DNA of 44,232 nucleotides from Rubrivivax sp. GTDB taxonomy: Bacteria > Pseudomonadota > Gammaproteobacteria > Burkholderiales > Burkholderiaceae_C. Below, piece after piece: positions 139-44,232 of this stretch. Where the stretch lies: positions 1-44,232 of the forward strand of contig JAEUPE010000008.1 in the NCBI GenBank assembly GCA_016790435.1, read 5' to 3'. Numbering within the stretch: the stretch's first letter is position 1; each line of letters starts with the position of its first letter. Made by a program: the position numbers and the translations under genes. Below the pieces are notes generated by a model. It saw only the letters and a list, made by a program, of their open reading frames with translations, ran no database searches and was not told the origin of the DNA.

Positions 139-140
139 CC
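112..140 (+). other. candidate attL (tRNA 3' end)
   Basis: P4-type integrases next to a tRNA usually recombine at the T-arm and acceptor 3' end, which the island then restores as a direct repeat at its far end. I see no second copy of this stretch in the window, so the matching attR should lie beyond the right edge or has been lost. The site is inferred from context only. Confidence 0.4.
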
Positions 141-7318: not shown

Positions 7319-7467
7319 CAACGCTCCCAAGCCAGCGGCGGTTATTGGGCTGTTCGCCTCGCAGGGGGCCCGGGGGCAAGACTCCAGACCCTGCGACCTG
7401 CGCGACATCGGTCTGCCCAATATATCGGGAAGACTAGCTACCGCGAACCTCGGAGATTCCGCACCAT
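7319..7467. promoter_or_regulatory. divergent control region beside the XRE gene
   Basis: These 149 bp separate the minus-strand operon from the XRE-type regulator and must hold promoters for both. A short AT-rich patch, CAATATATCGG near 7419-7429, stands out in otherwise GC-rich DNA and could be a -10 or operator. The hexamer AAGACT occurs twice (about 7378 and 7429). I cannot assign a defined operator. Confidence 0.4.
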
Positions 7468-7728: not shown

Positions 7729-7921
7729 TCTCCATTGCCGCGATCTGCGTCGCCAGAGGCGGCCAGCTCGAGCCGCGACCTGCACTGCGAACTAGGGCTA
7801 ACCCGAACACTGCATGCCCACCACGGTACTCCGCCTTCGAAAGCTGCTTGCGGCGTCGTGCATCGTGGCGCGTTCGTCCTGCGGGGCGTCTTTAGACGAA
7901 CGTTGCTTCAGGGCATAGAAC

Positions 7922-14206: not shown

Positions 14207-14224
14207 GCAGGACAACGAACCTGA

Positions 14225-29418: not shown

Positions 29419-30552
29419 TCAGCGGGCGGTGGTTGCGCGCTCGAGCCTAATGGCCTCGGCCGGCAGCATCAGCGCATGCTCGAGCGCCTTCGAGCGGCCT
29501 CGACCTTGCGGCCCGTAGATTCGCGTGGCGGGTCCGCCGAGCTTCTTCTTGAGCTCGTTGCTCAATCGGTTGATGGCGTCCTGGTATGCCTTCGGCGTGA
29601 ACTGGCCCTCATTGGCGCCAAGGTACGCGGCCTCGGCGTCGTACTTCGTCCCGACACCCGCCACCAGCCGGTAGATCTCCAGGAAGTCGCGCCGAATGAT
29701 TTGTGCATCCATGGCCGGGCGAATCCACGGTTCGCCGCGCATGGCCTGCTGCGCGAGCAGCCAATACAGCGCGAACGACTTGGCTGCCAGGTCGAACTTG
29801 AGGCCGCCTGCGATCTCCACCTCCACGGGGCACATGTTGCGGCCGGGGGGCCGCGGGGCGATGCGCAGCACCACGCTCGGGCTGACCAGCATGCCGTCGA
29901 CGACCGCCACGAGCTCGGTGAAGGAACCCTTGGAGATCAACGGCGCCGGCAGCAGCGAGCGCAGGCGGATGAAGCTCACCGGCGCCAGGTCGATGCGCGC
30001 GCGCGCCGTGTCCGCCGGCCCGCCGCGCAGTTGCAGAATCTGGGGGGGGCGCGGTGGAAAGAAGAACTCGGGCGCGGACTCGAAAGGCTCGTTCACCAGC
30101 ACGTGCGACATGCGGTCTTGCGGCCGACCCAGCAGCGATGCGCAGGTGCCCAGGTAGTAGCCCATGGTTTTGCGGCCGCCGGCAATGGAGAAGTGGATGG
30201 CGGCATCGTCTTTCGCGGTCAGCTCGCGCACCACCTGCAGGATGCTGTCGGCGGCCGCGTCGTTGTGTGCCGCCGTGCGCAGGTCGTCCAGGGGGCCCTC
30301 GGGGCCTTGGATCAGGTGCAACCGCACCTTCGGCATCGGCAAGGCATGTTGCTCGCACAGGCGTGCCAGCTGGTTGGCACGTTCGTCGATGAACATCAGA
30401 CGCACCGCCTCGGCACCGCGCGTGGTGGTGACCACGTGCACTTCGTCGGGAACGAATCGCTCTCCAGCGCCGGAAGTGGCCAGGCTGAAGAGCGTCTCCG
30501 TCACCACCTGCGGCGAAAGGCCGGTGGCGCAGAGCAGGATGCGGCGGGGCAT
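29419..30552 (-). CDS. CARF-domain protein, NE0113 family (copy 1)
   Basis: A 377-aa protein. Residues 1-175 match the NE0113 CRISPR-associated family: the opening RRILLCATGLSPQVVTETL, a central EVHVVTT strand, and the SIAGGRKTM motif at 122-130, then LLGRPQD..SHVLV and PEFFFPPRP. CARF domains bind cyclic oligoadenylates or related ligands. The C-terminal ~200 residues end in a region (QDAINRLSNELKKKLGG, then RIYGPQGRGRSK) that reads like a winged helix, so the protein may be a ligand-controlled transcription factor; that part is inference. The ATG at 30552 has AAGGAG 9 nt upstream. No cas genes adjoin it. Confidence 0.87.
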   Translation of the reverse strand: MPRRILLCATGLSPQVVTETLFSLATSGAGERFVPDEVHVVTTTRGAEAVRLMFIDERANQLARLCEQHALPMPKVRLHLIQGPEGPLDDLRTAAHNDAAADSILQVVRELTAKDDAAIHFSIAGGRKTMGYYLGTCASLLGRPQDRMSHVLVNEPFESAPEFFFPPRPPQILQLRGGPADTARARIDLAPVSFIRLRSLLPAPLISKGSFTELVAVVDGMLVSPSVVLRIAPRPPGRNMCPVEVEIAGGLKFDLAAKSFALYWLLAQQAMRGEPWIRPAMDAQIIRRDFLEIYRLVAGVGTKYDAEAAYLGANEGQFTPKAYQDAINRLSNELKKKLGGPATRIYGPQGRGRSKALEHALMLPAEAIRLERATTAR

Positions 30553-31067
30553 GGTTGTGCACTCCTTGGGGCATGACGATCGCCATCGGCGCGGGCGCAA
30601 GCTTCGCACGAGGGGCCTGCACCGGGCCCAACTCGCAGAACTGCACTGGCGCCTCGCCCACCGAGCCACTGTACGACCCTGTCGGAGATTGTCGCCCGGG
30701 CCAATCCGGTGCGTTCGGCGCCGACACAGCATTGGCGCGCCTTTCCGGCCGATCCGGGGTCGCCAAGGCGAGATGCCGGGTGACAAACCAGGCCCGCGCC
30801 GATTTCGCCCCGGAAAGCGAGTGCTGGCGCGGTTCAGAGTGATATGGGTGCCGCGGCACCTCAGGCCTTCGGGCCTTGCGACGGCGACACACCAGCCGAT
30901 CTGCATGTATGGTGCCGCGGCACGTCTGGCCCTCGGGCCTTTCGCCATTCGCCCGACCTCCTTGACGCAGTGCGGGAAGCCGGGCCGCGTTTCTTCCGGC
31001 CACTTCACGTGCCGCCAGGCCGGCCGGACCGAGCATTCAAGGAAGCCGCTTCACGGGAGGTAAGCCC
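30553..31067. other. 515-bp intergenic region with palindromic repeats
   Basis: This stretch lies between two divergent genes, the first CARF gene (minus) and the zinc-ribbon gene (plus), and should contain promoters for both. No reading frame in it looks like a real protein. Its notable content is a pair of near-identical 33-bp palindromic repeats at 30848-30880 and 30912-30944, annotated separately. I see nothing else I can name. Confidence 0.6.
30848..30944. repeat. two 33-bp palindromic repeats, 64-bp period
   Basis: Copies at 30848-30880 and 30912-30944 match at 29 of 33 positions. Each starts with the perfect 12-bp palindrome GTGCCGCGGCAC and continues with a dyad of the form GGCC-TTCG/CTCG-GGCC. 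They lie about 300 bp upstream of the first CARF gene and 124-220 bp upstream of the zinc-ribbon gene. Paired operators for a dimeric DNA-binding protein, or two members of a REP-like repeat family, are the main options. Confidence 0.8.
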
Positions 31068-31241
31068 ATGTCCCAGCGCAAGGACTGCAAGGAGTGCAAG
31101 GGAACGGGCGGCGCGCCCTGCCCCAAGTGTCATGGACGCGGCGTCGTCTATGGTCCCCTCGGTGGCTCCAAGCCCTGCAAGCACTGCGGCGGCCACGGCA
31201 AGGTCCGCTGCAACGTGTGCGGGGGCGGGGGCAAGCTCTAG
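31068..31241 (+). CDS. 57-aa DnaJ-type zinc-ribbon protein
   Basis: A small gene with an ideal ribosome-binding site (GGGAGG 8 nt before the ATG). The peptide contains four CxxC pairs arranged as two zinc sites: Cys7/Cys10, Cys18/Cys21, Cys38/Cys41 and Cys49/Cys52, most followed by the Gly-x-Gly pattern of the DnaJ cysteine-rich domain (CKECKGTGG, CPKCHGRG, CKHCGGHG, CNVCGGGG). In DnaJ this module binds unfolded protein; stand-alone copies may act as zinc-dependent adaptors or thiol chaperones. It diverges from the first CARF gene and converges on the GAP1-like gene with 54 bp between stops. It is easy to miss because of its size. Confidence 0.85.
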   Translation: MSQRKDCKECKGTGGAPCPKCHGRGVVYGPLGGSKPCKHCGGHGKVRCNVCGGGGKL

Positions 31242-31278
31242 GCTCGGCCCAGGCGCTCGCCTCGCCCGGCCGGCCCCG

Positions 31279-31294
31279 CCCGCCTCAAGGCGGG
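31279..31294. terminator. short hairpin between convergent genes
   Basis: CCCGCC (31279-31284) and GGCGGG (31289-31294) form a 6-bp stem with the loop TCAA, followed by TTCAGT. It sits between the stop of the zinc-ribbon gene and the stop of the convergent GAP1-like gene and could serve both strands. The U-tract is poor. Confidence 0.45.
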
Positions 31295-31295
31295 T

Positions 31296-32909
31296 TCAGT
31301 CTCTCGTCGGAAGTTGGCGGTGCACCAGAAGCCGCGCCGCGGCCGCATGAGCGGCGGGCGAGTCCGAGCCAGCCTTCGACGCGGCAAGCACGGCGTCGGC
31401 GAAGGCCTCCTCGAGCAAGTCGTCGGGGAACTGCAGCGTGCACATCCTCTCGCCGGTGTGCAAGACCTCCGGAAGCAGCCGCTCGGGCAGGGGCACGGGC
31501 ACGGTCGTGGCGGTCGTTCGTGACCGCTGTGCCGTCTGGCGCAGCACGTCCGCCACGGTGCGCTGGCGCGCGAGCTTCTGCACTTGGCCTCGCAGCCAGC
31601 CCGCTGACCCCGCGGCCGGCTGGCGCGCCGGGCGGGCCAGCGCCCGCGCCAGCACATCGGGGTGCCTGGCCGCCCATACGGCCAGCAGCTCACCCAGCAG
31701 CGCCCAGGCCACGGCCGCGAACCGGGTGCGAGGCGCCTTCGGCTGTGGACTGCCCCAAAGCGCGCCCAACCATGTCTGCGGGTCGAACAGCGAGCCGTGC
31801 GCGGCCTCTCGCACCGGCATCGCGCGCAGTGCCTCGGCAAGCGCCGCCGCTACGAGCACCACGGCGAGTGGCTCCTCGGCACGGTCGAGCCGCGCAGCAA
31901 GATGCGGCAGCCGCGTCGCAGCCTCGCGGCGCGCGGGCGGCGGCAGGGCGTCGATGAGGCGCGCCAGCCGCGGCGGGCTGGGCGCCACGCCGGCCGAAAG
32001 GCCCGGCTCAAACCATCGTGCGAGGTTCTCGCGCCCCATCGGCAGCGAGCCCGGGCACAACCAGTCGCAGGCCGCGTCGCTGAGCATGGTGCGCAGCAAC
32101 AGCGCGTGCTCGAACTGCGAGATGTCGCACTCCGCCTCGGCAGCGCAACGTTCCCACAACCCACGAGCAGCCAGGTCGGCGCCCAGCGCATGCGGCAGCG
32201 CGGTGCGTCGGAACCACGCCGCGGCCAGCCCATCGAGCGCCCCGGGCACGGCCGCCCCCGCGGGCGCGGGCCTGGACTGCGGTTCGCTCGCGGCAGCCTG
32301 AAGGGCTGCCCCGGTGCTGGCGATGAACAGGCCCGGGCGACCGGGCCGCGAGCCAGGCAGCAGGCCGGCGCCCACCGCGGTGCGGCGTGCCACCGCTGGG
32401 GGCAGCAGCGCGACGAGGCCGAGGGCTTCGGCCCACGACGCTTCCCCCTCGGCCATCGCCACCGTTGCTTGGTCGTCCAGCAGCCGGGCCCAGGCGCGGG
32501 CCACCCAGGCAGGGGCCGCACCATGCGCGAACGCGCCGGTCCGAGGCCAGCGTTCGGTCGATCGCCGCGCGCTGGCCTCACGGTCGCCGGCTTCGGGGAA
32601 GGGCGGCACCAGGTCGAGCAGGTGCTCGTGGGCGCCCGGCTCCAGGGCCTCGGCCCAGGGCACCACGGCGCAGGCGGTCTCGCGAAACCGGTCGCCCGCC
32701 GGGCGCACGGAGACGCGGCTGCGGAACGCGAGTAACGCCAACGGCTGCCCCTCGGCATGAACGGGCGTTACCACCTGCGCCTCGCGATCGACGGCCAGTT
32801 TCCAGCGGCCCACTTCGTCGAGGCAGGGAGACTCCAGCGCGCGCCTTTCACCCTCGCGGAATAGGATGTCGTAGCCGGCCGGGCCGTAACCCCAGAGGAA
32901 GCGGTGCAC
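31296..32909 (-). CDS. GAP1-like GTPase-associated protein
   Basis: A 537-aa protein at the end of the GTPase operon. The opening VHRFLWGYGPAGYDILF resembles the N-terminal signature of GAP1 (GTPase-associated protein 1) families, which comparative genomics places beside membrane GTPases in predicted conflict systems. The rest is Ala/Arg/Leu-rich and helical, with WARLLDDQATVAMAEGEASWAEALGLVALL at about residues 115-145 in short pieces and no catalytic motif. The start is uncertain: GTG 32909 immediately precedes the conserved HRFLWGY but has no good ribosome-binding site, and the upstream frame is Arg/Pro-rich noise. It begins 76 bp after the GTPase stop. Confidence 0.6.
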   Translation of the reverse strand: MHRFLWGYGPAGYDILFREGERRALESPCLDEVGRWKLAVDREAQVVTPVHAEGQPLALLAFRSRVSVRPAGDRFRETACAVVPWAEALEPGAHEHLLDLVPPFPEAGDREASARRSTERWPRTGAFAHGAAPAWVARAWARLLDDQATVAMAEGEASWAEALGLVALLPPAVARRTAVGAGLLPGSRPGRPGLFIASTGAALQAAASEPQSRPAPAGAAVPGALDGLAAAWFRRTALPHALGADLAARGLWERCAAEAECDISQFEHALLLRTMLSDAACDWLCPGSLPMGRENLARWFEPGLSAGVAPSPPRLARLIDALPPPARREAATRLPHLAARLDRAEEPLAVVLVAAALAEALRAMPVREAAHGSLFDPQTWLGALWGSPQPKAPRTRFAAVAWALLGELLAVWAARHPDVLARALARPARQPAAGSAGWLRGQVQKLARQRTVADVLRQTAQRSRTTATTVPVPLPERLLPEVLHTGERMCTLQFPDDLLEEAFADAVLAASKAGSDSPAAHAAAARLLVHRQLPTRD

Positions 32910-32985
32910 GGTGGATGCCGGGTTCGGCTGCCGGTTGCGTGGCGAGGCGGCGGGCGGGAGGGCGGAGGGCGACGCCGGGATCTTC

Positions 32986-35505
32986 CTAGCGCGTCGCCAC
33001 CGGGTTGCCCTGAGGCGCCGAGCCCGCCTCGGCGGCTGCCGCGCAACCGTAGGTTGCCTCGAAGTTGCGCGCCACCTCGGGAGATGGCGCGAAGGCCGGG
33101 CCCAGGCGGCAGCGCAACTTCGCTGCCGCAACGCGGGTGGTGGCGGCCTCCGGCGCATCGTGCGCCGCTTCGAACACCCCGAACGCCGCATTGAGCCGGC
33201 GCAGCAGCGCCGGATGGTCCGGGCCCTGCGGCAGGCGCAGCAGGGTCACCGCCGCGGCCACCTCGCACCCTGCGCTCTGGGGCGTCCTCACCTCGCCCGC
33301 GGCCATCAACAGCGTCAGCGCCACCCTCGCCCGGTGTGTTGCCGCGGTGTCGGTTTGCAGCGGGTCGGTCTCCATCGGCTCGCGCCAGGGCACGGCCACG
33401 GCCGGGGGCGCATACATCGCCGGCGCCTCCATCAGGGCACAGGCCGCTTCCGCCACCCGCTTCAGCGGCAGCACCGGCAGGCGCTGCGGCAGCGTGCGCG
33501 GTTTGGGCATGCCGACGCGCCGCCCCCACTCGGCAACCACCCACTCGCGGCGCACCCACTCGCTCACCTCCGGCCACGCGCCGTCGCCCGCGTTGCGCAA
33601 TGCGGTCAAGCGGTCTTCGAACGAACCGGGGCCCAGCAAGCGCAGCATGAGCAGGTGTGCCGGGTTGGCGCGGACGGCCTTGCCCAGGCACTGCGAGAAC
33701 TCCTCCGGCGTCGCGGCCCGCGCGGCCAGGTTGGCGAAGGTGTGGGCATCGGGCCTGGGCGCGCGCAGCAGTTGCGCCTCGAGACCCCTGCCACGGCTGC
33801 AGGCCACCTCCTCGGCGCACGGAGAGGTTGGCGGCTGCGGCAGGCCCTGCGGCAGGCCCTCCGGGAAGCCCAGCGCGGCATCGGCCCGGTAGCACAGCTG
33901 CAGTTCGGGCGGCAGCCGCTCGCCCTCGCGGCCGCATGGCGCCGCCGGGGCCCTCCAGCCACCGGCCTCGCGCGCTCGCGCCCACTCGTTGAGGCAGGCG
34001 GAGGCTCCTCTCGCGCCGTTCAGCAGCCGCAACAGGTCGATGAACTCTTGCCGCTCGCTGCCCGTGATGCCTTCGGCCAGCTTGGCCACCTCGGCCATCG
34101 GCTGCCCCTCGGCCAAGGCCTGCACGGCCTTCAGGGCCTGCACCTCGCCGGCGCCATCGGCGGGGAACCACGGCATGGGCCCCGGGAAGGTTCCGGGGCG
34201 CCCGCCGGAACGTGCCGCCGCTTCGTAGCGCGCGGCGCTGAACTCGGCCGGCGCGGCGGCACCACGTGCCAGCTCCACTTGCGCCGCCAGGCCCATCAAC
34301 TGCGGCCGCCGGGGCGGCATCGCGTCCAGCATGGCGCGGCCACAGGCGGCGACCAGCGGCGCGATGAGGTCCAGCCGCTGCCGGAACGGCACCGTCGTCG
34401 CATTGCGGGCGATCACCTCCACGCAATCGCAGCGCTCATCGGGCTGGCTCAGGTTCGAGCAGGCGCTCACGGCCCAGGGCGCGGGCAGCCAGCCCGGGGC
34501 ATATCTCGATACGGTCATGAACAGGCCGAGACCGACCACCAAGAGGGCTGCCAGCGTGGCGACTGCCATGTGCAGCAGCCGCTGGTCGCGGGCAACGCGC
34601 TGACGCTCACTTTCGATCCGATCGGCCACGCGCTGGCGTGCGCCCTCGATCTGATCGGCCACCCACAACAACCCGGCCCCCGTGTTGGATCCGGGCAGGC
34701 GGCTCGGCGGGCGCGCGCCCTGGTTGCTGACGGGCACGCATCGGAACTCGGCCCCGGGCGCGGCGTCGCGCACGCGGTCGAGCCAGGTGAAGGTCGAGTT
34801 CGCCAGTTGGTCCAGGCCGGCGTAGATGCGCTCGCGCGAGTTCAACGCGTTGCCACGCATCGACGACGAGCTGCCCGAGCTCAGCGCGACGTGCAGCTCG
34901 CGAAGGCGGGGCAGGTCCGCGTCTCGCCAGCGCACCAGGTCCACGAACCCGATCTGCACGACCACCACCGGGGCAGGCGTGTCGGCATCAAGCAGCCGTT
35001 GCCGGACGAAGCCTTGCACCAGCTCGAGCACCTGGCGCAGCTGTTCCACGGCCTGGCCTTCGCCGAGCTCCCGGCCACGGTCGGCGACCAGCTGCCTGCG
35101 GTCCTCGATGCAACCAAACTCGTCTTCATCGGTGGGTGGCACGGCAAAGGCGATGACGCCTGCCACGCGCGGCCTGATCGCCAGCAGTTGCTCGCGCATG
35201 CGTCCCGCACCCGTGGTCTCGTTCGGATCGCTGACGAGTCGTTGCTCCAGGATCTCGCCCGGCACGTCGAACACGCGAAACCGCGCCTGGTCGATCTCCA
35301 CGAGGTACTCGGTGAGTTCGTGGCTGCGAAAGGCCAGCACGCCTTGGTGGACGACGGACACGAACTCGCTGCCGTCGCCCCGCCGCCAGAGCCTGAACTG
35401 CGCCGCCCACGATGCGAGCGTCTGCGACTTGCCGGACTGGCGCGCCCCCAGCAGCAGGATGGCCGGAAGCGCGGCCACTTCGGCAGAAGAAAGCGCCAGC
35501 GTCAC
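32986..35505 (-). CDS. membrane-anchored P-loop GTPase, 839 aa
   Basis: The N-terminal domain has G1 at 20-27 (GARQSGKS) and a G3-like FDVPGE at 79-84, arranged as in TRAFAC-type GTPases of bacterial conflict systems. A canonical NKxD is absent; VVVQIGFVDL at 181-190 may be a diverged G4. A basic coiled segment (about 286-310) precedes one transmembrane helix at about 313-333 (AVATLAALLVVGLGLFM). The remaining ~500 residues are helical with several Cys and lie on the other side of the membrane or as a second domain. It starts at a GTG overlapping the radical-SAM stop (GTGA), so translation is coupled. Confidence 0.75.
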   Translation of the reverse strand: MTLALSSAEVAALPAILLLGARQSGKSQTLASWAAQFRLWRRGDGSEFVSVVHQGVLAFRSHELTEYLVEIDQARFRVFDVPGEILEQRLVSDPNETTGAGRMREQLLAIRPRVAGVIAFAVPPTDEDEFGCIEDRRQLVADRGRELGEGQAVEQLRQVLELVQGFVRQRLLDADTPAPVVVVQIGFVDLVRWRDADLPRLRELHVALSSGSSSSMRGNALNSRERIYAGLDQLANSTFTWLDRVRDAAPGAEFRCVPVSNQGARPPSRLPGSNTGAGLLWVADQIEGARQRVADRIESERQRVARDQRLLHMAVATLAALLVVGLGLFMTVSRYAPGWLPAPWAVSACSNLSQPDERCDCVEVIARNATTVPFRQRLDLIAPLVAACGRAMLDAMPPRRPQLMGLAAQVELARGAAAPAEFSAARYEAAARSGGRPGTFPGPMPWFPADGAGEVQALKAVQALAEGQPMAEVAKLAEGITGSERQEFIDLLRLLNGARGASACLNEWARAREAGGWRAPAAPCGREGERLPPELQLCYRADAALGFPEGLPQGLPQPPTSPCAEEVACSRGRGLEAQLLRAPRPDAHTFANLAARAATPEEFSQCLGKAVRANPAHLLMLRLLGPGSFEDRLTALRNAGDGAWPEVSEWVRREWVVAEWGRRVGMPKPRTLPQRLPVLPLKRVAEAACALMEAPAMYAPPAVAVPWREPMETDPLQTDTAATHRARVALTLLMAAGEVRTPQSAGCEVAAAVTLLRLPQGPDHPALLRRLNAAFGVFEAAHDAPEAATTRVAAAKLRCRLGPAFAPSPEVARNFEATYGCAAAAEAGSAPQGNPVATR

Positions 35506-36110
35506 GTGCGGCCCTCATTCGCACCGGCCGCGCAAGGTTGAAGCAGGCGTGCAATGTCCTTGAGCGCGAAGCCGGAGACCACGCCGCCGGCGCCGTCGCC
35601 GAGCCACTCACCGCGCGGCAAGCCCTCGATCTCGTCGGGCCGGATTCGGGCGGACAGGAAATGCAGCCTCTGATTGGCCGACCCGCGCAGCGGCAGCGTC
35701 GTGGGCTGGTCCCGCAGAAATCGGCCGTCGACCAGCAGGTCCGTCTCGCGCAGCAGCGCCTCGGCGTGGGGTCGGGCGCCGCGCTCGATCTCCTCGAGCG
35801 TGAAGCCGGAGAACGTGATGACGTCGGCGCCCAACGCACGTACCTCGCGGCTGATCGCCGCGAGCGCCAGTGCCTGCTCGAACGGCTCGCCGCCGCTGAG
35901 CGTCAGGCCGCGCAGGCCCGGCTTGCTCTTGAACCAGGCCAGCACGCTGTCCACCGTGGCCAGGCGCCGCGGCTCCGGCGCCCAGGTGCGGGCGTTGTGG
36001 CAGCCCTTGCAATGCAGCGAACAGCCCTGCACCCACAGCACGGCCCGCGCCCCGGGCCCGTTGGCCAGGGAGTGCCCAGCCGTGGCAGCGAGGTTGAGGA
36101 GCAGGCTCAT
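35502..36110 (-). CDS. radical-SAM activase-like protein
   Basis: A 202-aa protein of the single-cluster radical-SAM group that includes NrdG and PflA. The [4Fe-4S] motif is complete: Cys30-x3-Cys34-x2-Cys37 in QGCSLHCKGCHN. The SAM-binding TLSGGEPFEQ follows at about residues 69-78, and IERGARPH and SARIRPDE are placed as expected. Such enzymes use SAM to make a 5'-deoxyadenosyl radical and usually generate a glycyl radical on a partner, but no glycyl-radical enzyme is visible nearby. It overlaps its neighbours by 4 bp on both sides (ATGA and GTGA), which ties it firmly to the AAA+/GTPase operon. Confidence 0.88.
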   Translation of the reverse strand: MSLLLNLAATAGHSLANGPGARAVLWVQGCSLHCKGCHNARTWAPEPRRLATVDSVLAWFKSKPGLRGLTLSGGEPFEQALALAAISREVRALGADVITFSGFTLEEIERGARPHAEALLRETDLLVDGRFLRDQPTTLPLRGSANQRLHFLSARIRPDEIEGLPRGEWLGDGAGGVVSGFALKDIARLLQPCAAGANEGRT

Positions 36111-37357
36111 TGCTGGAGCTTGGGCCTTGGCCGCACAGGCGCTGCGGTGGGGCCGAGCGTGGCGGCGGGGGTCCGGCCCGACGCCTCGCGTGGCGCACGA
36201 GCCAAGGTCAGTTCCCTGCCCTCGTCGAAGATGCGTAACTCCACGCCCTGCGTGCGCAATTGCTCTGCGATCTGGTGCAAGCCGCCGTCCATGCAGGCCG
36301 GCCCGTCGAAGTTCTGCGGTCCCAGGAACTCGAGTGTGGTGTCGACGTCACCCTGTTCTAGCGATTGCGCAATCGCCTCGCTGAGGGCGAACTTCTCGCC
36401 ATGCTCGTCGGAGATGCTGGTGACCCAATGCGAGGCCTGCCTCTCGGGCTCCACCACCTCGAAGCCCCGGGCGCGCGCGGCAGCCATCACCAGGCGCACC
36501 CGCTGCTCGGCACGGGCGTCCACGAAGCGTTCCAGCTCGCGCAGCGCGGGGGCGGCCGACAGCCAGTCTCCCCGCGTGAGAGCTTGCCGCAGGGCGCTCA
36601 GCGATTCGGCAAAGCCGGGGCGCCAGGCCTCCAGCAACGGCCGGCGGTCCGGCTTGTTCCAGGTGTCCAGCCCGCGCATCAGCGCCTGCCGGCGCACGTG
36701 CAACCGCTCCTCGAGCGAGGCCGGTCGAAGGTCGGCGATCGCACGCTCGGTACGCGTGGCCGCTTCCAGCGTCGGCCGGGCGAGAAACCGCCCGACCTCG
36801 GTCCGGGCACGCTCGACGTCGTCGCCCCACGAAACCTGTGCGGCCTCGCAGGCCTCCAGGAACGCCATGCCATCGCGGGCACGCTTCAACACCGCCAAAT
36901 AGCTCTCGACGGCCGACCCGGCAGACAGTGATTGCGCCAGGGCCGCACGCAGGTCCTCGTCGGACTGCACTCTCGGCATCGCCGCCACGGCACCGGCCCG
37001 CCCGCGCTCACCGAGGGACCTCAGGGTCTGCACGGCATGCGCGAGCAGGGCGTCGCGCTCTTCAGCCGCCTGGCGCAGGCCGTCGATGTCGCTGGCCTGG
37101 AGCTGCGCCAGCCCGCCGCGCTGGCGCCCCAGTTCTGCCAGGGCGTACCCGGCGACGGCCTCGAAGCCCGCATCGCACAGCGCCTTCCACTGCTTCTCCA
37201 GTGCCGCCGCGCTCTCCAGGAAGCGCTTCTCTGCGGCCAGGCGCAGTTGCTCCCGACGCCGTTCCTCGGCCAGGCGCGCCGCCACGGCCGCGCGCCGCAG
37301 CGCCTCGGCCATGGCTTCCACGTTGTCCTGCAGGTTTCCGTCTTGTCTTCCGCTCAT
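36107..37357 (-). CDS. helical/coiled-coil protein, 416 aa
   Basis: An almost entirely alpha-helical protein with an Arg/Glu/Ala-rich N-terminus (residues 15-60, AEALRRAAVAARLAEERRRE) that should form a coiled coil. The middle repeats long helices (VGRFLARPTLEAATRTERA, RRQALMRGLDTW). A small domain follows at about 310-385 (WVTSISDEHGEKFALSEAI, GVELRIFDEGREL). The tail is Pro/Arg-rich. I do not recognise a family. It overlaps the AAA+ gene upstream and the radical-SAM gene downstream by ATGA, so it is probably a structural partner or adaptor of the complex. Confidence 0.7.
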   Translation of the reverse strand: MSGRQDGNLQDNVEAMAEALRRAAVAARLAEERRREQLRLAAEKRFLESAAALEKQWKALCDAGFEAVAGYALAELGRQRGGLAQLQASDIDGLRQAAEERDALLAHAVQTLRSLGERGRAGAVAAMPRVQSDEDLRAALAQSLSAGSAVESYLAVLKRARDGMAFLEACEAAQVSWGDDVERARTEVGRFLARPTLEAATRTERAIADLRPASLEERLHVRRQALMRGLDTWNKPDRRPLLEAWRPGFAESLSALRQALTRGDWLSAAPALRELERFVDARAEQRVRLVMAAARARGFEVVEPERQASHWVTSISDEHGEKFALSEAIAQSLEQGDVDTTLEFLGPQNFDGPACMDGGLHQIAEQLRTQGVELRIFDEGRELTLARAPREASGRTPAATLGPTAAPVRPRPKLQQ

Positions 37358-38928
37358 CGCGCTGTCTCTTCAGCTGTGTCGCTCACCAAACGGTAGCCAC
37401 CACTCTTCATCTTCTCTTCGTACATCGCCCAGAGGTTCCGTCCTTCCTCGCGCTGCTTCAGCGGCACGACGCAAGGCTTGGCGGCGAGGATGCTGTCCGG
37501 CGTCAGCGTGCGGGCCCTGACGCCCACCTTGTAGGCCGCCTCGACGAGCAACTGGTGCAGCTCCGCGCCGGTGAACTCGTGGGTCTCGCGCACGATGAGC
37601 GCCCGCACCTCGGCAAGGATCTCCAGCTTCAGCTTCTTCGCCAGCGCGTCCACGATCTCCCCTCGCTCGCCCTCTGTGGGCAACGACACGATGTAGTTCG
37701 CGTCGAAGCGACCCGAGCGCGTGAGCTCGGGCGGGATGGCGTCGGCCTTGTTGCAGGTGGCGACAACGAAGACCGGGGCCTTGCGGTCCGCCAGCCAGCG
37801 CAGCAGCTGGCCCACCAGCCGGGTCATCACGCCGGAGCTGTCGCCGCCCTGGCCGCCCGCGATGTCCTTTTCCACCTCGTCCATCAGCACCACCACGGGT
37901 GCGGCCGCCTCGAGCGTGGCCAGCGCCATGCGGAAGTTGGCCTCGGAGGCACCGACCCAACGCTCCTGCACCTGCCCGAGGTTCAGGCCGATCAGCGGCA
38001 TGCCCAGCCGCTGCGCGATCCAGCGCGCCGTGTACGACTTGCCGCACCCCGGGAAGCCGAGGAACAGCACCCCCCGAGGCCGAAGCTCCGGGCGCTCGGT
38101 CGTCTCGAAGAACGGCCGGCGCTCGTCGAACCAGCGCTGGAAGGCGCCGAACCCGCCAAGATCCAGGGGCTCGTCGGTGGACAGGATCTCCAGGACCCCG
38201 GTCTTGCGGATCTCTTCCTTCTTGATGCGGTCAATCATCACGCGCGGGTCTTCAGACTGCTGGCCGAACGACGGGGGAAGCTCCAGCCGCCGCACGATGT
38301 CGCGCACCGCAAGCAGGGGCAGCCCTGCCACGCGGCCGGCAAACGAGCCGGTGTCCATGCCGCTGCGGCGCAGCGCAGGCTCCAACCCCGGCTCGTCCTG
38401 AAGTGCCCCGATCAGCGTCTGCTGGTTGGGCGGCTGCAGCACGGTGGATTGCACATAGCCGCCCAGGCCCGCCGGCGGCGACCAGCCGAACCCGGTCATC
38501 AACAGGCATCGCCGCAACGCGTTGCCCGGCCCCGGCACCCAGGTCTCGTGCAGGTCCTTCAACAGCCGGATGAAGCGCAGCGTCGCGTCCGGCGACCCCT
38601 CGTGCCCCTGGCCGGCACCCACGGCATCGCGCGCCACGAGCAGCAGGTTGCAGTCGAACTGGCGCCGGTTCGCCGGTTCGCGCAGGCGCACGAGCATCTG
38701 CTCGAAGGTGGGCACGTCCTGCGCGCTGAACACCTGCGATCCGCGACCGCCCTCGAACTTCACGAGCCCGGTCGTGCAGGTCCACGAGAAGTAGGTGACG
38801 TCCGGCAGCGAGTCGACGAGGTCGAAGGCCTCGTCGCGCACGCGCTCGTCCTCGGATGACTCGCAGTAGATCAGCGGGCTGCCGGCACCCAGGCTTTCCC
38901 TGAGGAACGATGCGAAGTCCTGGCTCAT
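37354..38928 (-). CDS. Ycf46-like AAA+ ATPase
   Basis: A 524-aa classical AAA+ ATPase. Residues 1-215 form an N-terminal domain of the Ycf46 type (SPLIYCESSEDERV near the start). The AAA module follows: Walker A GFPGCGKS at 291-298, Walker B VVLMDE at 346-351, sensor-1 ATCNKAD at 390-396 and arginines Arg404/Arg407 in ELTRSGRFD. It would remodel a protein partner using ATP. It starts 1 bp after the stop of the 198-aa gene and ends with an ATGA overlap onto the helical protein, so it sits in the centre of a tightly coupled operon. No protease domain is attached, unlike FtsH. Confidence 0.9.
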   Translation of the reverse strand: MSQDFASFLRESLGAGSPLIYCESSEDERVRDEAFDLVDSLPDVTYFSWTCTTGLVKFEGGRGSQVFSAQDVPTFEQMLVRLREPANRRQFDCNLLLVARDAVGAGQGHEGSPDATLRFIRLLKDLHETWVPGPGNALRRCLLMTGFGWSPPAGLGGYVQSTVLQPPNQQTLIGALQDEPGLEPALRRSGMDTGSFAGRVAGLPLLAVRDIVRRLELPPSFGQQSEDPRVMIDRIKKEEIRKTGVLEILSTDEPLDLGGFGAFQRWFDERRPFFETTERPELRPRGVLFLGFPGCGKSYTARWIAQRLGMPLIGLNLGQVQERWVGASEANFRMALATLEAAAPVVVLMDEVEKDIAGGQGGDSSGVMTRLVGQLLRWLADRKAPVFVVATCNKADAIPPELTRSGRFDANYIVSLPTEGERGEIVDALAKKLKLEILAEVRALIVRETHEFTGAELHQLLVEAAYKVGVRARTLTPDSILAAKPCVVPLKQREEGRNLWAMYEEKMKSGGYRLVSDTAEETAR

Positions 38929-38929
38929 G

Positions 38930-39526
38930 TCAACGCCTTCCCTTCCTCAAGCTGCGCGGCACGGCGATGTCGGGCACCTCGCCGGAGGGGGCGTCGCTCT
39001 TCGCCGCGGCCGCAGCCGCCTCCCCTTGGCGTCTGACGCCAAGTGGCTCCGTGATCGGGTCGACCTCGGTGGTCTCCGCAGGCGCCGGCTCCGGAGCCGG
39101 CCCCGTCGCCGTGCCGGGCCGGGGTCGAGGGCCTGGGGCGGCCCTCACTGTCTGCAGCGGCGCGAGCTGCTGGTAGGCGAACAGGAATTCGGAGGTGTCG
39201 TCGAGTGGCCCCCTGGGTATCGTTCCGCCGGCCAGCAGCGCGGTGGCGTTCGCGGCCAGCCAGTCGCACAGCTGCTTTTCCAGCAGGTCCCTGTCAGCCG
39301 TGTTCAACCGCGCTCCATCGGAGGTGGCGAACAGGCAGGACGCGACGCGCCTCGCCTTGGCCTCGACCGTGCCGTTGACGTAGTCGACACGCAGCAGCAC
39401 GTCGCGCCGCATCGGACCGCCCGCCGGCTCGATGAGGCGAATGACGAGCGGCGCGTCGTTGCGCTCGGCCCGCACCTTGTCGAAGGCGACCCCGTCCACC
39501 TGCCGAGTATCTCTGCGCGGTGCCAT
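38930..39526 (-). CDS. hypothetical protein opening the AAA+ operon
   Basis: A 198-aa protein starting at ATG 39526 (MAPRRDTRQVDGVAF), with a G-rich stretch just upstream. Residues about 5-115 look like a compact alpha/beta domain (APLVIRLIEP, RRDVLLRVDYVNGTVEAKARRV, EKQLCDWLAANATALLAGG). Residues about 120-198 are Pro/Ala/Glu-rich, probably disordered, ending PRSLRKGRR. No known motif is visible. It is 1 bp from the AAA+ start, so it is probably a substrate, adaptor or regulator for that ATPase. Confidence 0.65.
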   Translation of the reverse strand: MAPRRDTRQVDGVAFDKVRAERNDAPLVIRLIEPAGGPMRRDVLLRVDYVNGTVEAKARRVASCLFATSDGARLNTADRDLLEKQLCDWLAANATALLAGGTIPRGPLDDTSEFLFAYQQLAPLQTVRAAPGPRPRPGTATGPAPEPAPAETTEVDPITEPLGVRRQGEAAAAAAKSDAPSGEVPDIAVPRSLRKGRR

Positions 39527-39868
39527 GCCCCCTGCCCCCCATTGCTGGCCGCGGTCCTCTCTCGGGGCCAGCATAGGAGAACCGAGCCGGAACGTCCATC
39601 TCCCGGCGGACCAGTCACGGTGCTTGTCGTGCATCTTGGGGGCTCCTGCGATGGACTGCACTCTGGCGCTGGTGCGCTCGTCCGGGGTGGACCGCAGATC
39701 TGCGGAGTTCCGAAGACTGCTGGCCGGTTGACGAAGCCCATGCTTGCGCCGGCAATCTGTCTCCACACCGGACCTGGTGCCTGCGGCGGAGGGGGCGAAA
39801 GTGCGGCGCCTCGGCCGACACCCGCTGGCTTGTGTTCCTCGCGGCGCCGGTCAGGATCAGGCTGCCTG

Positions 39869-40276
39869 ATGGGACCCGACATCACCCACAACGACGCGTC
39901 ACCCCTAAAGGCGGTCGTCGGCCAGCGCATCCAGTTCTTCGGATCGGCACAGGGTCTGGCCGCTGGGGTCACGGTGGCCTCGCAGGCCTGGACGAGCGGC
40001 GGCATAGCCGCCGGTCGGCACGACGTGACGCGCCCCACGCTTCAGCGTCCGCAGACCAGGACCAACGCGCCGACGGTCACCTTCCACTGGATCGCGCCGC
40101 GCAGCCCTTCACGCACTGTCGCGGTTCGGGACACCACTTCCGCGCCATGGTTCGCACGCGTCTTCGACGACCGCGCTTCGCCGTTCCAGAAGTCCCTCGC
40201 ATTCCCTCAGTGGACGCGCGTCGTGAAACACCGCGAGCTGGGTTGCAGCATTCGATCGATCGAAGCAGGGAAATGA
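39869..40276 (+). pseudogene. possible remnant of an Ig-like repeat protein
   Basis: The frame reads MGPDITHNDASPLKAVVGQR, then a pattern typical of surface Ig-like or polymorphic-toxin N-terminal domains: a VVGQRIQFFG start, GVTVASQAWT, and VTFHWIAPR. After about residue 85 the match fades (TSAPWFARVFDD onward), as if frameshifted or truncated. There is no good ribosome-binding site. It may be a fragment left by insertion of the neighbouring CARF genes, or a short unrecognised protein. Confidence 0.3.
40251..40264. promoter_or_regulatory. 14-bp perfect palindrome
   Basis: TTCGATCGATCGAA is self-complementary and stands just upstream of the ATGA junction at 40273. It shares the TCGAT core with the dyad upstream of the second CARF gene (41595-41614). 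A binding role is only suggested by symmetry. Confidence 0.3.
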
Positions 40277-40352
40277 GCGAGCTCATCCAGACCCTGGTAC
40301 TCGGTTCCATGGTGTCCGCCACCGTCGGGACTCAACTGCCCACAGACTCGCC

Positions 40353-41537
40353 CTACACGAACCGGATCAACCCCGCGTCCAGATTCATCAACCCATACTG
40401 CCCGTCGCGCGTGCCACGCGCACTGGGCCCAGCGATCAGCAGGCGCTGGGCGGTCGCCTCACCCAGGGCGCTGCGCAGCTTGGCATTGATGTAGGAAACG
40501 CGCGACTTGAACTCGTCCTTGAACTCGTCGAGCCGGCGCGATGGCGGCTTGTACTGCACATCGGTCAGGCGGGCGAACACCCGGCGCAGGTCCGCCTCGT
40601 GGATGCCGATGTTGCGCGTGGGGTCCTTGTCGACGCGCACGAAGCCCGGCGCCACCAGGCCGGGCTCGGCCAGATGCCGCTGGCGCCGTTCCGCGAGGTA
40701 GGCGTACCACGCCATCTCCATGGGCTCCAGCGTCACCACGGCGCTGCCGACGCGCACCGTGCGCGTGGCCATCGACAGCACCACCGGTTGGGGCAGCAGG
40801 TCCTGCTCGGCCTGCGCCACAAGCTGCTCGTAGCTCAGCCGCGATTCGAGGATCTTGCTGCGCATGCCCGCCGCAAAGCGCAGCAGCGGCACCCGGGCAA
40901 GCCGGACCAACGCGTCGTGAGCTGCGTACTTGCGGCCATCGCGCAGCGTCAGCTCGGTCGGTTGGCGCGGCGGATAAAAGAACTCGGGGTGCCCTTCCAG
41001 CTCGCTCGGCACGAGCACGTGCGAGATCTGGTCCTGCGGGCGGCCCAGCAGCGAGATGGCCGAGCACAGCAGCGCGCCCATCGTCTTCCGCCCCCCGGCG
41101 ATGGAGGCATGGATGGCGCAATGGGGGTCGTTCACCAGCGGCGCGATCACCCTCAGGATGGCGTTGCCCGTGGCGGCACTGTCCTCGGGGTCGTCGATGT
41201 CGTCCAGCGGTTGCCCGGGGTCGTCTGCCCTGCAGATGACGTGGATCCACCTCGGGCGCCCTTCGGCATCGACCGAGGTGCCATCGAAGGCGATCGACGC
41301 CCCCGGCAGGTACTCGGCCACCAGGCGATGGAAGTGGCCGCGCACGGGGTCGAGCAGCTTTGCGCGGGCGTCCTCCGCGCCCAGTGCCGTGGTGATGACA
41401 TGGATCTCCGTCGGCACCCAGCGCGGCTTGGCACGAACGGCCAGCGCGAACAGCGTCTCCGTCAGGATCTGCGGGTTGCGGCCCAGCACGCACACGAGGG
41501 CGCGGCGTGAGAACTCCGTTGGTTCGGTGTTGGACAT
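40353..41537 (-). CDS. CARF-domain protein, NE0113 family (copy 2)
   Basis: A 394-aa paralogue of the CARF protein encoded at 29419-30552. It shares the opening (RRALVCVLGRNPQILTETLF), EIHVITT, the SIAGGRKTM motif at 145-153, LLGRPQD..SHVLV and PEFFYPPRQP. The linker between strand and motif is longer (GRPRWIHVICRADDPGQPLD). The C-terminal ~190 residues differ in detail but keep the same layout, ending with a helix (FKSRVSYINAKLRSALGE) and a short wing-like segment, consistent with a winged helix. The ATG at 41537 has GGAGGG upstream. Two diverged copies bracketing one operon suggest different ligands or opposing regulatory roles. Confidence 0.87.
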   Translation of the reverse strand: MSNTEPTEFSRRALVCVLGRNPQILTETLFALAVRAKPRWVPTEIHVITTALGAEDARAKLLDPVRGHFHRLVAEYLPGASIAFDGTSVDAEGRPRWIHVICRADDPGQPLDDIDDPEDSAATGNAILRVIAPLVNDPHCAIHASIAGGRKTMGALLCSAISLLGRPQDQISHVLVPSELEGHPEFFYPPRQPTELTLRDGRKYAAHDALVRLARVPLLRFAAGMRSKILESRLSYEQLVAQAEQDLLPQPVVLSMATRTVRVGSAVVTLEPMEMAWYAYLAERRQRHLAEPGLVAPGFVRVDKDPTRNIGIHEADLRRVFARLTDVQYKPPSRRLDEFKDEFKSRVSYINAKLRSALGEATAQRLLIAGPSARGTRDGQYGLMNLDAGLIRFV

Positions 41538-41658: not shown

Positions 41659-41961
41659 TTACGAACGCCGGATGCGCCCGCCGGCACCCTGCCAGCGCCG
41701 CCCGGCCGTGACCACCGCGCCACTGCGGCTCACGACGACGTACACGCCGCGGTAGTGGTCGTCGACGTAGCCCGGGCGGAGGCCGAGTTCGTCCTGCAGG
41801 CGTTGCGCGGCGCGCCGCGTCACCAGGTGCAGCACGCTGCCGTCGACCTGCACGAAGCGGTCGCCGTACAAGGTTGCGGCGCGCAGGCCGGCCTGCCCGA
41901 TGCGGCGTTGCTCCACTCGGGCACGCGCATGGTGGGTCATGAAGAGAGGCTGCTGGCTCAT
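41659..41961 (-). CDS. DUF4258-like small protein
   Basis: A 100-aa protein beginning MSQQPLFMTHHARARVEQRR. The HARARVEQRRIGQAGLRAATLYG opening is the signature of DUF4258-type proteins, related to the RelE/BrnT-like toxin fold, followed by a beta-rich part (RFVQVDGSVLHLVTRRAA, YRGVYVVVSRSGAVVTAGRRW). The ATG at 41961 is chosen because AAGGA lies 8-10 nt upstream; the longer frame is low-complexity. No obvious antitoxin follows. It lies upstream of the second CARF gene on the same strand and diverges from the Csx16 operon. Confidence 0.65.
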   Translation of the reverse strand: MSQQPLFMTHHARARVEQRRIGQAGLRAATLYGDRFVQVDGSVLHLVTRRAAQRLQDELGLRPGYVDDHYRGVYVVVSRSGAVVTAGRRWQGAGGRIRRS

Positions 41962-42133: not shown

Positions 42134-42481
42134 ATGGAAGCCCTTGGCACGCCCCCGCAAGCAGCGCATGAAGAAGAGACGCCGCAGACGCCTGCGCCCT
42201 CGCGCGACTGGCCGGCGCTGATGGACGCGCGGCTGCGCCTGGCGATGACCGTGTTCGCCCACGGCTGCCCGGCCGAACCGGAAGAGGCGCGCGACTACAT
42301 CGGGCAGAAGGTGCAGTGGCTGGCTCGCGAGTTCGACCTGCGGGAGTGGAGCGAGCGTCACTTCGGCCAGGCCCGGGACCCGGAGAAGACGGCAGCCAGC
42401 GTGCTTGCCCTCATGGCGCTGGCATCGTCGTTCGGGCGAGCGGTCACCGACGCCAACCCCGGCGCCCGGCTGCAGCAGTAG
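42134..42481 (+). CDS. hypothetical protein, 115 aa, upstream of csx16
   Basis: I do not recognise this protein. It has a good ribosome-binding site (AGGAGA about 7 nt before the ATG). The first ~25 residues are Pro/Glu-rich and probably disordered; the rest is helical (WPALMDARLRLAMTVFAHG, QKVQWLAREFDLREWSERHFG, KTAASVLALMALASSFGRAV). It ends 13 bp before the csx16 start, so the two are probably cotranscribed. A helical partner or regulator of the Csx16 module is possible. Confidence 0.65.
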   Translation: MEALGTPPQAAHEEETPQTPAPSRDWPALMDARLRLAMTVFAHGCPAEPEEARDYIGQKVQWLAREFDLREWSERHFGQARDPEKTAASVLALMALASSFGRAVTDANPGARLQQ

Positions 42482-42494: not shown

Positions 42495-42830
42495 ATGCGC
42501 ACCCTCGACACCCGCGTCTTCCTGGTCACGCGACACCACGGCGCGCAGGACTGGCTTCGCCTGCGGCTGCGCGGGCTGCAGCCGATCCTCAAGACCCACC
42601 TCGATGACCTCGACGAGATCCGCCCCGGCGACATGGTGTGCGGCGTGCTGCCGCTCAGCCTGGCGGCAACGCTGTGCCGGCATGGCGTGGTCGTGATCTG
42701 CATCGATGTCGACGTGCCCGAGGCGCTGCGCGGCCAGGAACTGGACGCGTGCACGCTCGACCGCCTCGGCGCCCGCCTGACGCGCTATGAGGTCAGTGCC
42801 TGCCCGTGGACCGAAGGCAATCAGGCGTGA
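42495..42830 (+). CDS. csx16: CRISPR-associated protein Csx16
   Basis: A 111-aa protein with the Csx16 (VVA1548 family) signature: FLVTRHHGAQDWL at residues about 9-21, a GDMVCGVLPLSLAATLC strand-helix unit at about 53-69, and DVPEALRGQELDA at about 77-89. Csx16 is found with type III CRISPR ancillary genes, and related small proteins have been proposed or reported as ring nucleases that degrade cyclic oligoadenylate. ATG 42495 has GAGGGG upstream and gives the usual family length. Its presence next to CARF genes with no cas genes in view points to signal turnover. Confidence 0.9.
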   Translation: MRTLDTRVFLVTRHHGAQDWLRLRLRGLQPILKTHLDDLDEIRPGDMVCGVLPLSLAATLCRHGVVVICIDVDVPEALRGQELDACTLDRLGARLTRYEVSACPWTEGNQA

Positions 42831-42874: not shown

Positions 42875-44232
42875 TCAGTCATCCGCCTGGGCCGTGGCCT
42901 CCAAGCCAGCCTTCGCATCCTCCGGTGGCGCGAAGCGCCGCATAAGCGACTCCAGCGTCTCTTCGAAGCTCGGGCACTCGAAGACCTCGTCCTGGTACGT
43001 ATAGCGCCGCGGCTGCCCCGACCAGGTGAAAGGCAGGTGGTTGCGGTTCTGCGCCAGCACCTTCTGCCGCGTCTGGTGGGCAGTTTCGAACCAGGGCGCA
43101 TCCGCCTTCGCCGTGGGAAGCAGGCTGCACACCCACATCTCGGCCAGCGCGGACACGGCTCGCCCCTGCACGGCCGTTCGCGCGTCCAGGTCCTTGTTGT
43201 CGATCGTGCCTGCCTTGCACTCGATGTTGAGCAGCAGGGCGTTCTTCAACACCAGCAGCACGTCGTACTCGGCAGCCGCATGCTCCGGGCGGCGCGACGC
43301 GGCGACGCTCACCTTCATCCAGACTTCGCTGACCGCGGCAGCCCACGGCGGATGGCGATCCAACGCGTCGAGAACCCTGGCGGCGGCGGCCGCCTCGAGT
43401 CGGTTGCCCAACGGCTTGACGACACGGTTCTCGCCCGGGTGCTGAAGTGCCAGCTCCGCCTGGCGCAGCAACCCGATGGCGGCGCCGAAGAGGGCAGACT
43501 GCTCCTTGCTGCCCATGTGCGCATGCGCGCCGAGATGCTGTGCGGCCGCGGCCAGCGTCGTGTCGAAAGCCCCGAGCAGCCTCTGCGCGTCGTCGTCGTG
43601 GAGTTGGCCCTTCTGCTCCACGCGGCGCAGTACCCGCTGCGCCTCCTGGGCGTGATGCGTGATGTCGCCGCCAAGCGCCACGAGGTCGGCAAAGGCCCGG
43701 TGCAGCTCGGGCGTGTCCAGGTTCTCGGCGTCGAGCAGCTGCGCAACCCAGGTGCCTCGGGCCCCCTGAATCATCGAGCGCACCGTCTCGCGGACCGTAC
43801 GGTTCCAGCGTTGCAGGGCGTTGGCCAGTGCGGAGCCCGCTTCGCCCCTCAGCGACCGGATCTGGCCGAGCTTGATGCGATCCGCATCCAGCCGCTCGCG
43901 GCGCTCCATCTTCACGTAGCGCTCGTAGTCCGCGGCCACCGACTCCAGGTCGTCGAACGAAGCGTCCGATCCCGGGTCGCCGATACCCGCGCCGCTGCGC
44001 CACAGGCATCGGTGCTCTCGCGACCCGCGCCAGAACTCATGGCCCGTGAAAGCCAGCAGCTGCGGCAGCTCCAGCGGGGCGCTGAAGGCCTCGACGCTGG
44101 CAACCAGGCGCCGGTCGGTGGGTGCACGCACGACCGTCGGCACCGGGGTCTCGCCGTACAGCACCTCGTCCAGCACGCCTTCGAGCGCCTCTTCCACGGC
44201 GCGCGACATCGGCTTGAGGCCACCGTTGGCCA
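42875..44232 (-). CDS. Can/Card1-like CARF nuclease, 5' end beyond window
   Basis: The frame stays open to the right edge, so the N-terminus is missing. The last visible residues upstream of an internal ATG (44209) read ANGGLKPMSRAVEEAL, which resembles the CARF core motif GGTKxMs of DUF1887-type proteins. Numbering from that internal Met, the C-terminal part has a complete PD-(D/E)XK nuclease: Glu272 in GNRLEAAAA, Asp316 in EYDVLL, and Glu330-Cys-Lys332 in NIECKAG. This layout matches Can2/Card1 effectors, which cut DNA or RNA when cyclic tetra-adenylate binds. The ~260 residues between are helical and longer than in Card1. It converges on csx16. Confidence 0.75.
   Translation of the reverse strand, partial: ANGGLKPMSRAVEEALEGVLDEVLYGETPVPTVVRAPTDRRLVASVEAFSAPLELPQLLAFTGHEFWRGSREHRCLWRSGAGIGDPGSDASFDDLESVAADYERYVKMERRERLDADRIKLGQIRSLRGEAGSALANALQRWNRTVRETVRSMIQGARGTWVAQLLDAENLDTPELHRAFADLVALGGDITHHAQEAQRVLRRVEQKGQLHDDDAQRLLGAFDTTLAAAAQHLGAHAHMGSKEQSALFGAAIGLLRQAELALQHPGENRVVKPLGNRLEAAAAARVLDALDRHPPWAAAVSEVWMKVSVAASRRPEHAAAEYDVLLVLKNALLLNIECKAGTIDNKDLDARTAVQGRAVSALAEMWVCSLLPTAKADAPWFETAHQTRQKVLAQNRNHLPFTWSGQPRRYTYQDEVFECPSFEETLESLMRRFAPPEDAKAGLEATAQADD

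Follow-up and report, generated by a model that had tools for sequence, protein, structure and literature searches.

A probable type III-D CRISPR-Cas ancillary locus of Rubrivivax sp. whose CARF genes bracket a putative divergent AAA+/helical/radical-SAM cassette

A stretch of DNA from Rubrivivax sp. (GCA_016790435.1, contig JAEUPE010000008.1; 44,232 nucleotides, hereafter the window) carries two genes for NE0113-type CARF proteins, CARF1 and CARF2, and between them an operon that encodes an AAA+ ATPase, a radical-SAM protein and four further proteins. This arrangement raises the question of whether the CARF proteins and the operon constitute one machine, as a first-pass annotation had proposed, or whether they belong to distinct systems that share a locus. 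The window is the entire contig C135. The draft genome it comes from, in 302 contigs and with a completeness of 80.8%, is taken as a metagenome-assembled genome. The answer favored by the evidence, which we hold to be moderately probable, is the second: the CARF genes, a gene for Csx16 and a gene for a Csx16-CARF-PD-(D/E)XK protein would form the ancillary cyclic oligoadenylate (cOA) arm of an adjoining type III-D system, and the operon would be a separate, divergent AAA+/helical/radical-SAM conflict cassette in the same island. On this reading, a cassette of this kind lies enclosed by the CARF genes of a type III-D ancillary locus. No description of a CARF/AAA+/radical-SAM/GTPase locus was found in the literature searched, most subscription journals lying outside it, and the main text of PMC11229360 mentions neither GTPase, AAA nor radical SAM.

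The genes that best account for the CARF proteins lie just beyond the right end of the window. Its last 48 bases are identical to the start of the reverse complement of a 10-kb contig of the same genome, C212, in an exact match found once per contig, and a 666-aa open frame runs across the overlap; C212 is taken as the physical neighbor of this end. Profile searches of C212 returned a Cas10 (E 8e-56) with a palm2 domain (E 1.6e-7) and a GGDD motif, a III-D Cas5 (E 8.5e-18) and III-D Cas7 matches (E 2.4e-52 and 3e-33). In its C212 part, the 666-aa frame matches Csx16 (E 4.6e-27) and positions 2-101 of the 364 of the CARF_PDDEXK profile (E 2.6e-7), and in its window part it matches the nuclease end of the CARF_PDDEXK model group. 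Thus, a Cas10 with GGDD lies close by, and CARF proteins and a ring nuclease are present in the locus itself, as in type III cOA-signaling loci. A Csx16 that has been tested is a cA4-specific ring nuclease (PMC12409355), Can2/Card1 is activated by cA4 (PMC9704534), and the HD domain is rare in III-D Cas10 (3%), so that type III-D systems may act mainly via cOA signaling (PMC11229360).

Relative to known type III-D systems with cOA ancillary genes (Can2/Card1, Csx16, CARF-HTH), the locus shares the Cas10 with GGDD, the III-D Cas5 and Cas7, Csx16, CARF-PD-(D/E)XK and the NE0113 CARF, but adds a second NE0113 paralogue and the AAA+/radical-SAM operon between the two, and here a Csx16 domain sits on the N-terminus of the CARF nuclease. 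Read across the two contigs, this last protein is possibly a self-limiting nuclease. Also beside the III-D genes, a weak vWA match (E 0.0006) is accompanied by a membrane protein recognized by eye (L269 7149-9090).

Two homologous loci bear on the origin of the CARF genes. In L230, from the same genus, a III-D locus homologous to that on C212 (Cas10 40.5%, Csx10 37%, Cas7 52% over 98 aa) contains Csx16 and an NE0113 CARF gene, with no cassette in the 19.4 kb read; in L246, Cas10, Cas5 and Cas7 homologous to those of C212 stand with an NE0113 CARF gene, without Csx16 or the cassette in the stretch read. Since a III-D locus adjoins the window, and since these two loci pair III-D homologues with a CARF gene in the absence of the cassette, the CARF genes are best explained as type III-D ancillary genes. 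The P-loop protein of the operon has no match in the genome of L230, and a FastTree tree, which carries no support values, places CARF2 with the NE0113 protein of L230. L230 also displays a repeat array that begins near 10.3 kb, together with ORFs resembling, by eye, Cas2 and a reverse transcriptase-Cas1 fusion.

The first-pass assignment of two same-strand genes to the NE0113 type is borne out by TIGR02584 (Table 1), and the two proteins are 40% identical over 251 aa. Counting the own genome, the family is present in 31 of the 369 class genomes and 3 of the 60 genus genomes searched. The profile built from 24 NE0113 sequences matches the CARF domain of Cad1 with its N-terminus (best E 0.0026). 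With its C-terminus (positions 240-308), 6 of 11 PDB matches are DNA-binding chains of response regulators (KdpE, RstA and another; E 0.14-1.3), which we take to be OmpR-type. CARF1 is possibly a CARF domain fused to an OmpR-like winged helix, and the NE0113 CARF genes perhaps encode CARF-winged-helix regulators. NE0113 proteins were predicted as transcription regulators by Makarova et al. 2014 (PMC4012209).

The rival proposal of one dedicated system, in which the CARF proteins sense cyclic oligonucleotides and trigger the NTPase machine directly, draws on the layout of the locus: the CARF genes stand on either side of a tight operon, on the same strand, and there are two of them, as against the single NE0113 match in 24 of the 31 class genomes that carry the family. 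Conserved adjacency, by which the first-pass annotation itself proposed to judge the idea, was looked for in other genomes. As the searches found no orthologues of the exact operon, linkage was judged from two of its genes, AAA+ and radical SAM, and from distant relatives of these. The 36 NE0113 stretches fetched, L230 and L246 among them, represent 38 of the 40 non-own matches; the two left out are weak (G353, E 7.4e-10; G298:C65, E 1.4e-7), several stretches are short contigs with partly unseen flanks, and L239 and L264 overlap. The 80 AAA+ genome loci are a subset of at least 587 stretches matched in a scan of genome contigs, and some viral loci overlap (L020/L057, L040/L041).

The window CARF proteins were matched in all 36 NE0113 stretches and Csx16 in seven; radical-SAM, helical, P-loop and 537-aa matches occurred in none (E up to 0.05), and an AAA match in one (54 residues, E 0.006). 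Neither the 80 AAA+ genome loci nor 107 plasmid and viral stretches contained a match to the CARF proteins. The operon is thus absent from the CARF stretches and the CARF genes from the AAA+ loci, the L230 and L246 systems have CARF genes without the operon in the stretch read, and within the window itself gaps of 826 bp (CARF2 to the 198-aa gene) and 743 bp (537-aa gene to CARF1) separate the CARF genes from the operon. With the pairing not found in the other genomes sampled and an adjoining III-D locus as the nearer explanation for the CARF genes, a single CARF-triggered system appears decidedly improbable. One viral contig has both Csx16 and an AAA+ gene, but the two were judged unrelated and the former was assigned to the phage itself as a ring nuclease; this Csx16 match (L045 3770-4072) is plausibly a phage ring-nuclease anti-CRISPR.

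An alternative would retain the connection at the level of transcription. Here, the operon would be a cOA-induced effector module of the type III-D system, and the CARF-winged-helix proteins would switch an AAA+/radical-SAM/P-loop dormancy machine on or off via its promoter. The location of the operon is consistent with this, since regulators predicted to respond to cOA are encoded on both sides of it and a Cas10 with GGDD adjoins, and Csa3, a CARF-HTH protein, offers a precedent as a cOA-responsive regulator (PMC9704534). However, no operator-like sequence common to the intergenic regions rose beyond the range of 12 shuffles, and the pairing was seen in no other sampled genome. Control of the cassette by CARF and cOA is possible because two predicted regulators bracket it, but we regard the induced-module explanation as unlikely. 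A similarly low probability attaches to its fuller form, in which the type III-D system recruited the AAA+/helical/radical-SAM/P-loop machine as an induced effector, and the operon is turned on by the CARF-winged-helix paralogues on either side once they bind the signal from Cas10.

In the preferred reading, the operon must be accounted for separately. From CARF2 to CARF1, its minus-strand genes encode the 198-aa protein, the AAA+ ATPase, the helical protein, the radical-SAM protein, the P-loop protein and the 537-aa protein, joined in that order by a 1-bp gap, three 4-nt overlaps and a 76-bp gap. The ORF coordinates confirm the gene list, order, strand and overlaps first given for the region between the CARF genes, but that inventory had left out a 57-aa ORF, the Csx16 gene and the adjoining type III-D genes. 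The 57-aa ORF and the 537-aa gene lie tail to tail. Codon-position GC of the CARF and operon genes fits coding (GC3 0.85-0.91), the 537-aa gene being the least clear case (GC2 0.59). The identities of the AAA+ and radical-SAM proteins are certain (Table 1), although the match of the latter to the NrdG model (E 1.6e-30) falls under the cut-off of that model. The AAA+ ATPase is 27-28% identical over most of its length to plasmid AAA+ proteins that adjoin DUF1257/DUF2997 genes; the name Ycf46-like, also given at first pass, is a presumed label.

These two genes connect the operon to other loci. A radical-SAM gene lies within 5 kb of the AAA+ gene in 35 of the 80 AAA+ genome loci, on the same strand in 34 of the 35, and in none of the 36 CARF stretches that served as the contrast set. 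The AAA+ family of the window is thereby linked to radical SAM, as in the AAA+/DUF2997/DUF1257/radical-SAM module of viral contigs, plasmids and bacteria. That module shares with the window the AAA+ family and a radical-SAM gene within a few kb, but it has small DUF2997 and DUF1257 proteins in place of the 416-aa helical protein, and its radical-SAM gene is usually 5' of the AAA+ gene. Searches for close relatives gave no full-length AAA+ match in 368 other genomes of the class (E up to 1e-60) and no radical-SAM profile match in 383 others of the phylum sample (E up to 1e-38). A profile search of 311 other class genomes yielded five strong radical-SAM relatives (L280-L284).

The surroundings of these relatives uphold the earlier claim that the operon resembles NTPase-centered conflict cassettes. 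In L284, from another genus of the class, the radical-SAM gene is followed by a DO-GTPase2 protein (PF19993, 37.3 bits, over the cut-off) and a 596-aa protein, in the same order as the P-loop and 537-aa genes follow it in the window; the L284 cassette (6680-16954) comprises helical, HEAT, ClpB-like AAA, FGE-like, radical-SAM, DO-GTPase2 and 596-aa proteins. In L280, the same radical-SAM subfamily stands beside the FtsH-ternary genes fvmX5 and fvmX6. The FtsH ternary (MoxR-vWA) systems of Kaur et al. 2020 (PMC7159879), whose radical-SAM protein was suggested to modify a peptide effector, share with the window an AAA+ protein and this subfamily, but the operon proteins scanned gave no fvmX, MoxR or vWA Pfam match. 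In L282 and L283, the radical-SAM gene adjoins an AAA+ gene related to that of the window among ordinary genes, and the L281 gene, located where its contig stops, has no visible partner of this kind.

Five plasmids (L014-L017 and L019) carry a cassette of helicase, PIN, helical, ClpB-like AAA and radical-SAM proteins, the last being 33-44% identical. As in the window, the helical, AAA+ and radical-SAM genes are adjacent; unlike in the window, the AAA+ protein is of the AAA_2 clade, and a helicase and a PIN protein replace the P-loop and 537-aa proteins (families tested on L014). The L014 helicase, from the sole plasmid cassette tested for families, matches MkoA strongly and its PIN protein MkoB weakly; this resemblance is that of L014, not of the window genes, and Mokosh membership of the window was rejected. 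The five hosts are Polaromonas, Leisingera, Acinetobacter, Moellerella and Photobacterium, and the C-terminus of their helical protein is DUF2997-like, most clearly in L016 and L019. On plasmids of Rhizobium and Caballeronia (L285, L286), an AAA-type protein, a radical-SAM protein and proteins of approximately 2100 and 450 aa are encoded in a row. By two of its gene families and its layout, the operon resembles the recurring AAA+/helical/radical-SAM cassette, of which it appears to be a divergent form.

The helical protein may contribute to this likeness. Its C-terminal 150 aa scored E 0.42 against a profile of eight helical partners, a score reached by 1 of 2000 shuffles (full length, E 3.2), and for the DUF2997-like component it was the best match in the window, though weak (E 0.2). 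A profile from the five full-length plasmid helical proteins failed to pick it out. In its C-terminal part, the protein may correspond to the helical partner encoded in other AAA+/radical-SAM cassettes.

The P-loop protein contains GARQSGKS (residue 20) and DVPGE (residue 80) and one hydrophobic stretch. Labeled a GTPase at first pass, it may be one by these two motifs, but NKxD is absent, and neither the full-length protein nor its first 335 aa matched a GTPase Pfam family at E up to 10. Membership of the DO-GTPases was rejected, as PF19975 and PF19993 matched neither form at the same threshold; a PF19993 search of the whole contig also gave nothing. Similarly, the GAP1-like label of the 537-aa protein was abandoned as an unsupported resemblance, in the right position only: no Pfam family matched at E up to 10, and the GAP1-M profile found nothing on the contig. 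Like the DO-GTPase/GAP1 systems (Kaur et al. 2020, PMC7159879), the operon has a protein with GxxxxGKS and DxxGE followed by one of approximately 540 aa; it differs in having no DO-GTPase or GAP1 match, no second GTPase, and no Pfam match to a zinc-ribbon, FNIII or GASH. The L284 596-aa protein also has no GAP1 Pfam match, and tblastn of plasmids with the L284 DO-GTPase found no match. AlphaFold2 single-sequence models (mean pLDDT 46.6 for the P-loop protein and an unusable 37.8 for the 537-aa protein) were set aside.

The P-loop protein found one chance-like match among 99 relatives and none among 398 other genomes of the order; the weak match, in G025 of the same genus (E 1e-4 over 75 residues), was discarded, its contig being phage-like. 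ORFs with a P-loop and DxxGE occur in 1 of the 80 genome loci and 1 of 96 viral loci, and neither resembles it. Single-protein searches of viral contigs with the P-loop and AAA+ proteins recovered no relatives, and the P-loop, helical and 537-aa proteins had no match in plasmids by tblastn. Four operon proteins, namely the P-loop, 537-aa, 198-aa and helical proteins, are without significant relatives in the data searched.

The breadth of the AAA+ association raises a further possibility, that the operon is a non-defense, housekeeping-like AAA+/DUF2997/radical-SAM module inserted by chance. AAA+ genes with DUF2997-like genes and radical SAM are indeed common (a DUF2997-like ORF in 41 of the 80 loci); such a module is also present on the viral contig L036, and L282 and L283 place theirs among ordinary genes. 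However, other radical-SAM relatives belong to conflict-type cassettes (MkoA-like helicase/PIN, FtsH ternary, DO-GTPase), and the island of the window itself carries GmrSD-type and DUF4011/MTES_1575 genes. This explanation is therefore judged improbable.

Several observations weigh against the reading of a III-D ancillary arm beside a separate cassette. On the CRISPR side, the join of C212 to the window was deduced from the overlap and the continuous frame rather than from reads, and an 18-mer repeat scan detected no CRISPR array in the window or in C212, both of which are cut contigs. As for regulation, no HTH Pfam family passed the cut-off in the 24 NE0113 members, the winged-helix assignment is weak at the E values given, NCBIfam calls the family (TIGR02584) a ring nuclease, and the intergenic regions lack the common operator noted above. 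As for the cassette, 270 non-own loci with 6152 ORFs contained no match (E up to 0.01) to the P-loop, 537-aa, 198-aa and helical proteins, and the first, second and last of these show no significant similarity to their L284 counterparts, so that membership rests on two genes and layout. In addition, of the 47 AAA+ loci that extend 4 kb or more in both directions, only 17 have radical SAM, and 32 of the 35 linked loci have their radical-SAM gene 5' of AAA+, whereas in the window it is 3'.

Taken together, the gene families suggest a mechanism in two parts. In the III-D arm, Cas10 would sense invader RNA and produce cyclic oligoadenylate, probably cA4; the CARF-PD-(D/E)XK nuclease would be the direct effector, its own Csx16 domain and the stand-alone Csx16 would destroy the signal, and the NE0113 proteins, as CARF-winged-helix transcription regulators, would tune nearby genes. 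In the cassette, the helical protein would serve as scaffold for a complex that the AAA+ ATPase remodels. By extension of the FtsH ternary proposal, a partner, possibly the 198-aa protein, would be modified or activated by the radical-SAM enzyme, and gating of the output would fall to the P-loop protein, which is probably anchored in the membrane.

The wider context is that of an island. Because a tRNA-Ser gene is followed by a tyrosine integrase and the left half contains GmrSD-type and DUF4011/MTES_1575 genes, the window reads as an integrated defense island. Between 7922 and 23258 lie a 2094-aa DUF4011 helicase with an MTES_1575 nuclease and a GreA/B-like end, a GmrSD-type protein, and genes that by eye resemble a type I restriction system. 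G+C is 65.8% in the first 28 kb of the window, 70.8% from 29.3 to 44.2 kb and 70.3% in C212; the similarity of the last two values favors C212 as the neighbor of the window.

Table 1. Features of the window discussed in the text, by position.
Feature	Coordinates	Strand	Evidence or remark
tRNA-Ser gene	51-140		
Tyrosine integrase	299-1660		follows tRNA-Ser
CARF1, NE0113-type	29419..30552	-	TIGR02584 E 6.5e-62; PADLOC CARF5 E 7.1e-88
57-aa CxxCxGxG zinc-finger-like ORF, DnaJ-type by eye	31068..31241	+	between 537-aa gene and CARF1
537-aa protein	31296..32909	-	orphan in searches made
P-loop 839-aa protein	32986..35505	-	GxxxxGKS and DxxGE motifs; hydrophobic stretch near residue 314
Radical-SAM protein, NrdG-type activase group	35502..36110	-	Fer4_12 E 3.5e-32; CxxxCxxC kept in alignment
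Helical 416-aa protein	36107..37357	-	no relevant Pfam match
AAA+ ATPase	37354..38928	-	PF00004 E 4.9e-26
198-aa protein, first gene of operon	38930..39526	-	orphan
CARF2, NE0113-type	40353..41537	-	TIGR02584 E 1.5e-55
100-aa protein	41659..41961	-	weak DUF4258, E 0.052, under cut-off
115-aa protein	42134..42481	+	5' of Csx16; no family assigned
Csx16 ring nuclease family	42495..42830	+	PF09652 E 1.8e-21; TIGR02620 E 8.8e-18
Csx16-CARF-PD-(D/E)XK, C-terminal two thirds	42875..44232	-	PADLOC CARF_PDDEXK E 3.6e-5; N-terminal part on C212 (L269 9542-10232)

We know of no trigger for NTPase-centered conflict machines. If the cassette is under cOA control, type III signaling would extend to such machines and provide a direct handle on their action; were the induced-module explanation true, the target of a CRISPR second messenger would be a machine for protein remodeling and radical chemistry, not a lone nuclease. 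The placement of a Csx16 domain N-terminal on a CARF-PD-(D/E)XK effector makes a self-limiting nuclease plausible. Even without cOA control, the locus points to a recurrent AAA+/helical/radical-SAM core that takes varied partners, among them helicase/PIN, DO-GTPase, FtsH ternary and the P-loop/orphan pair described here.

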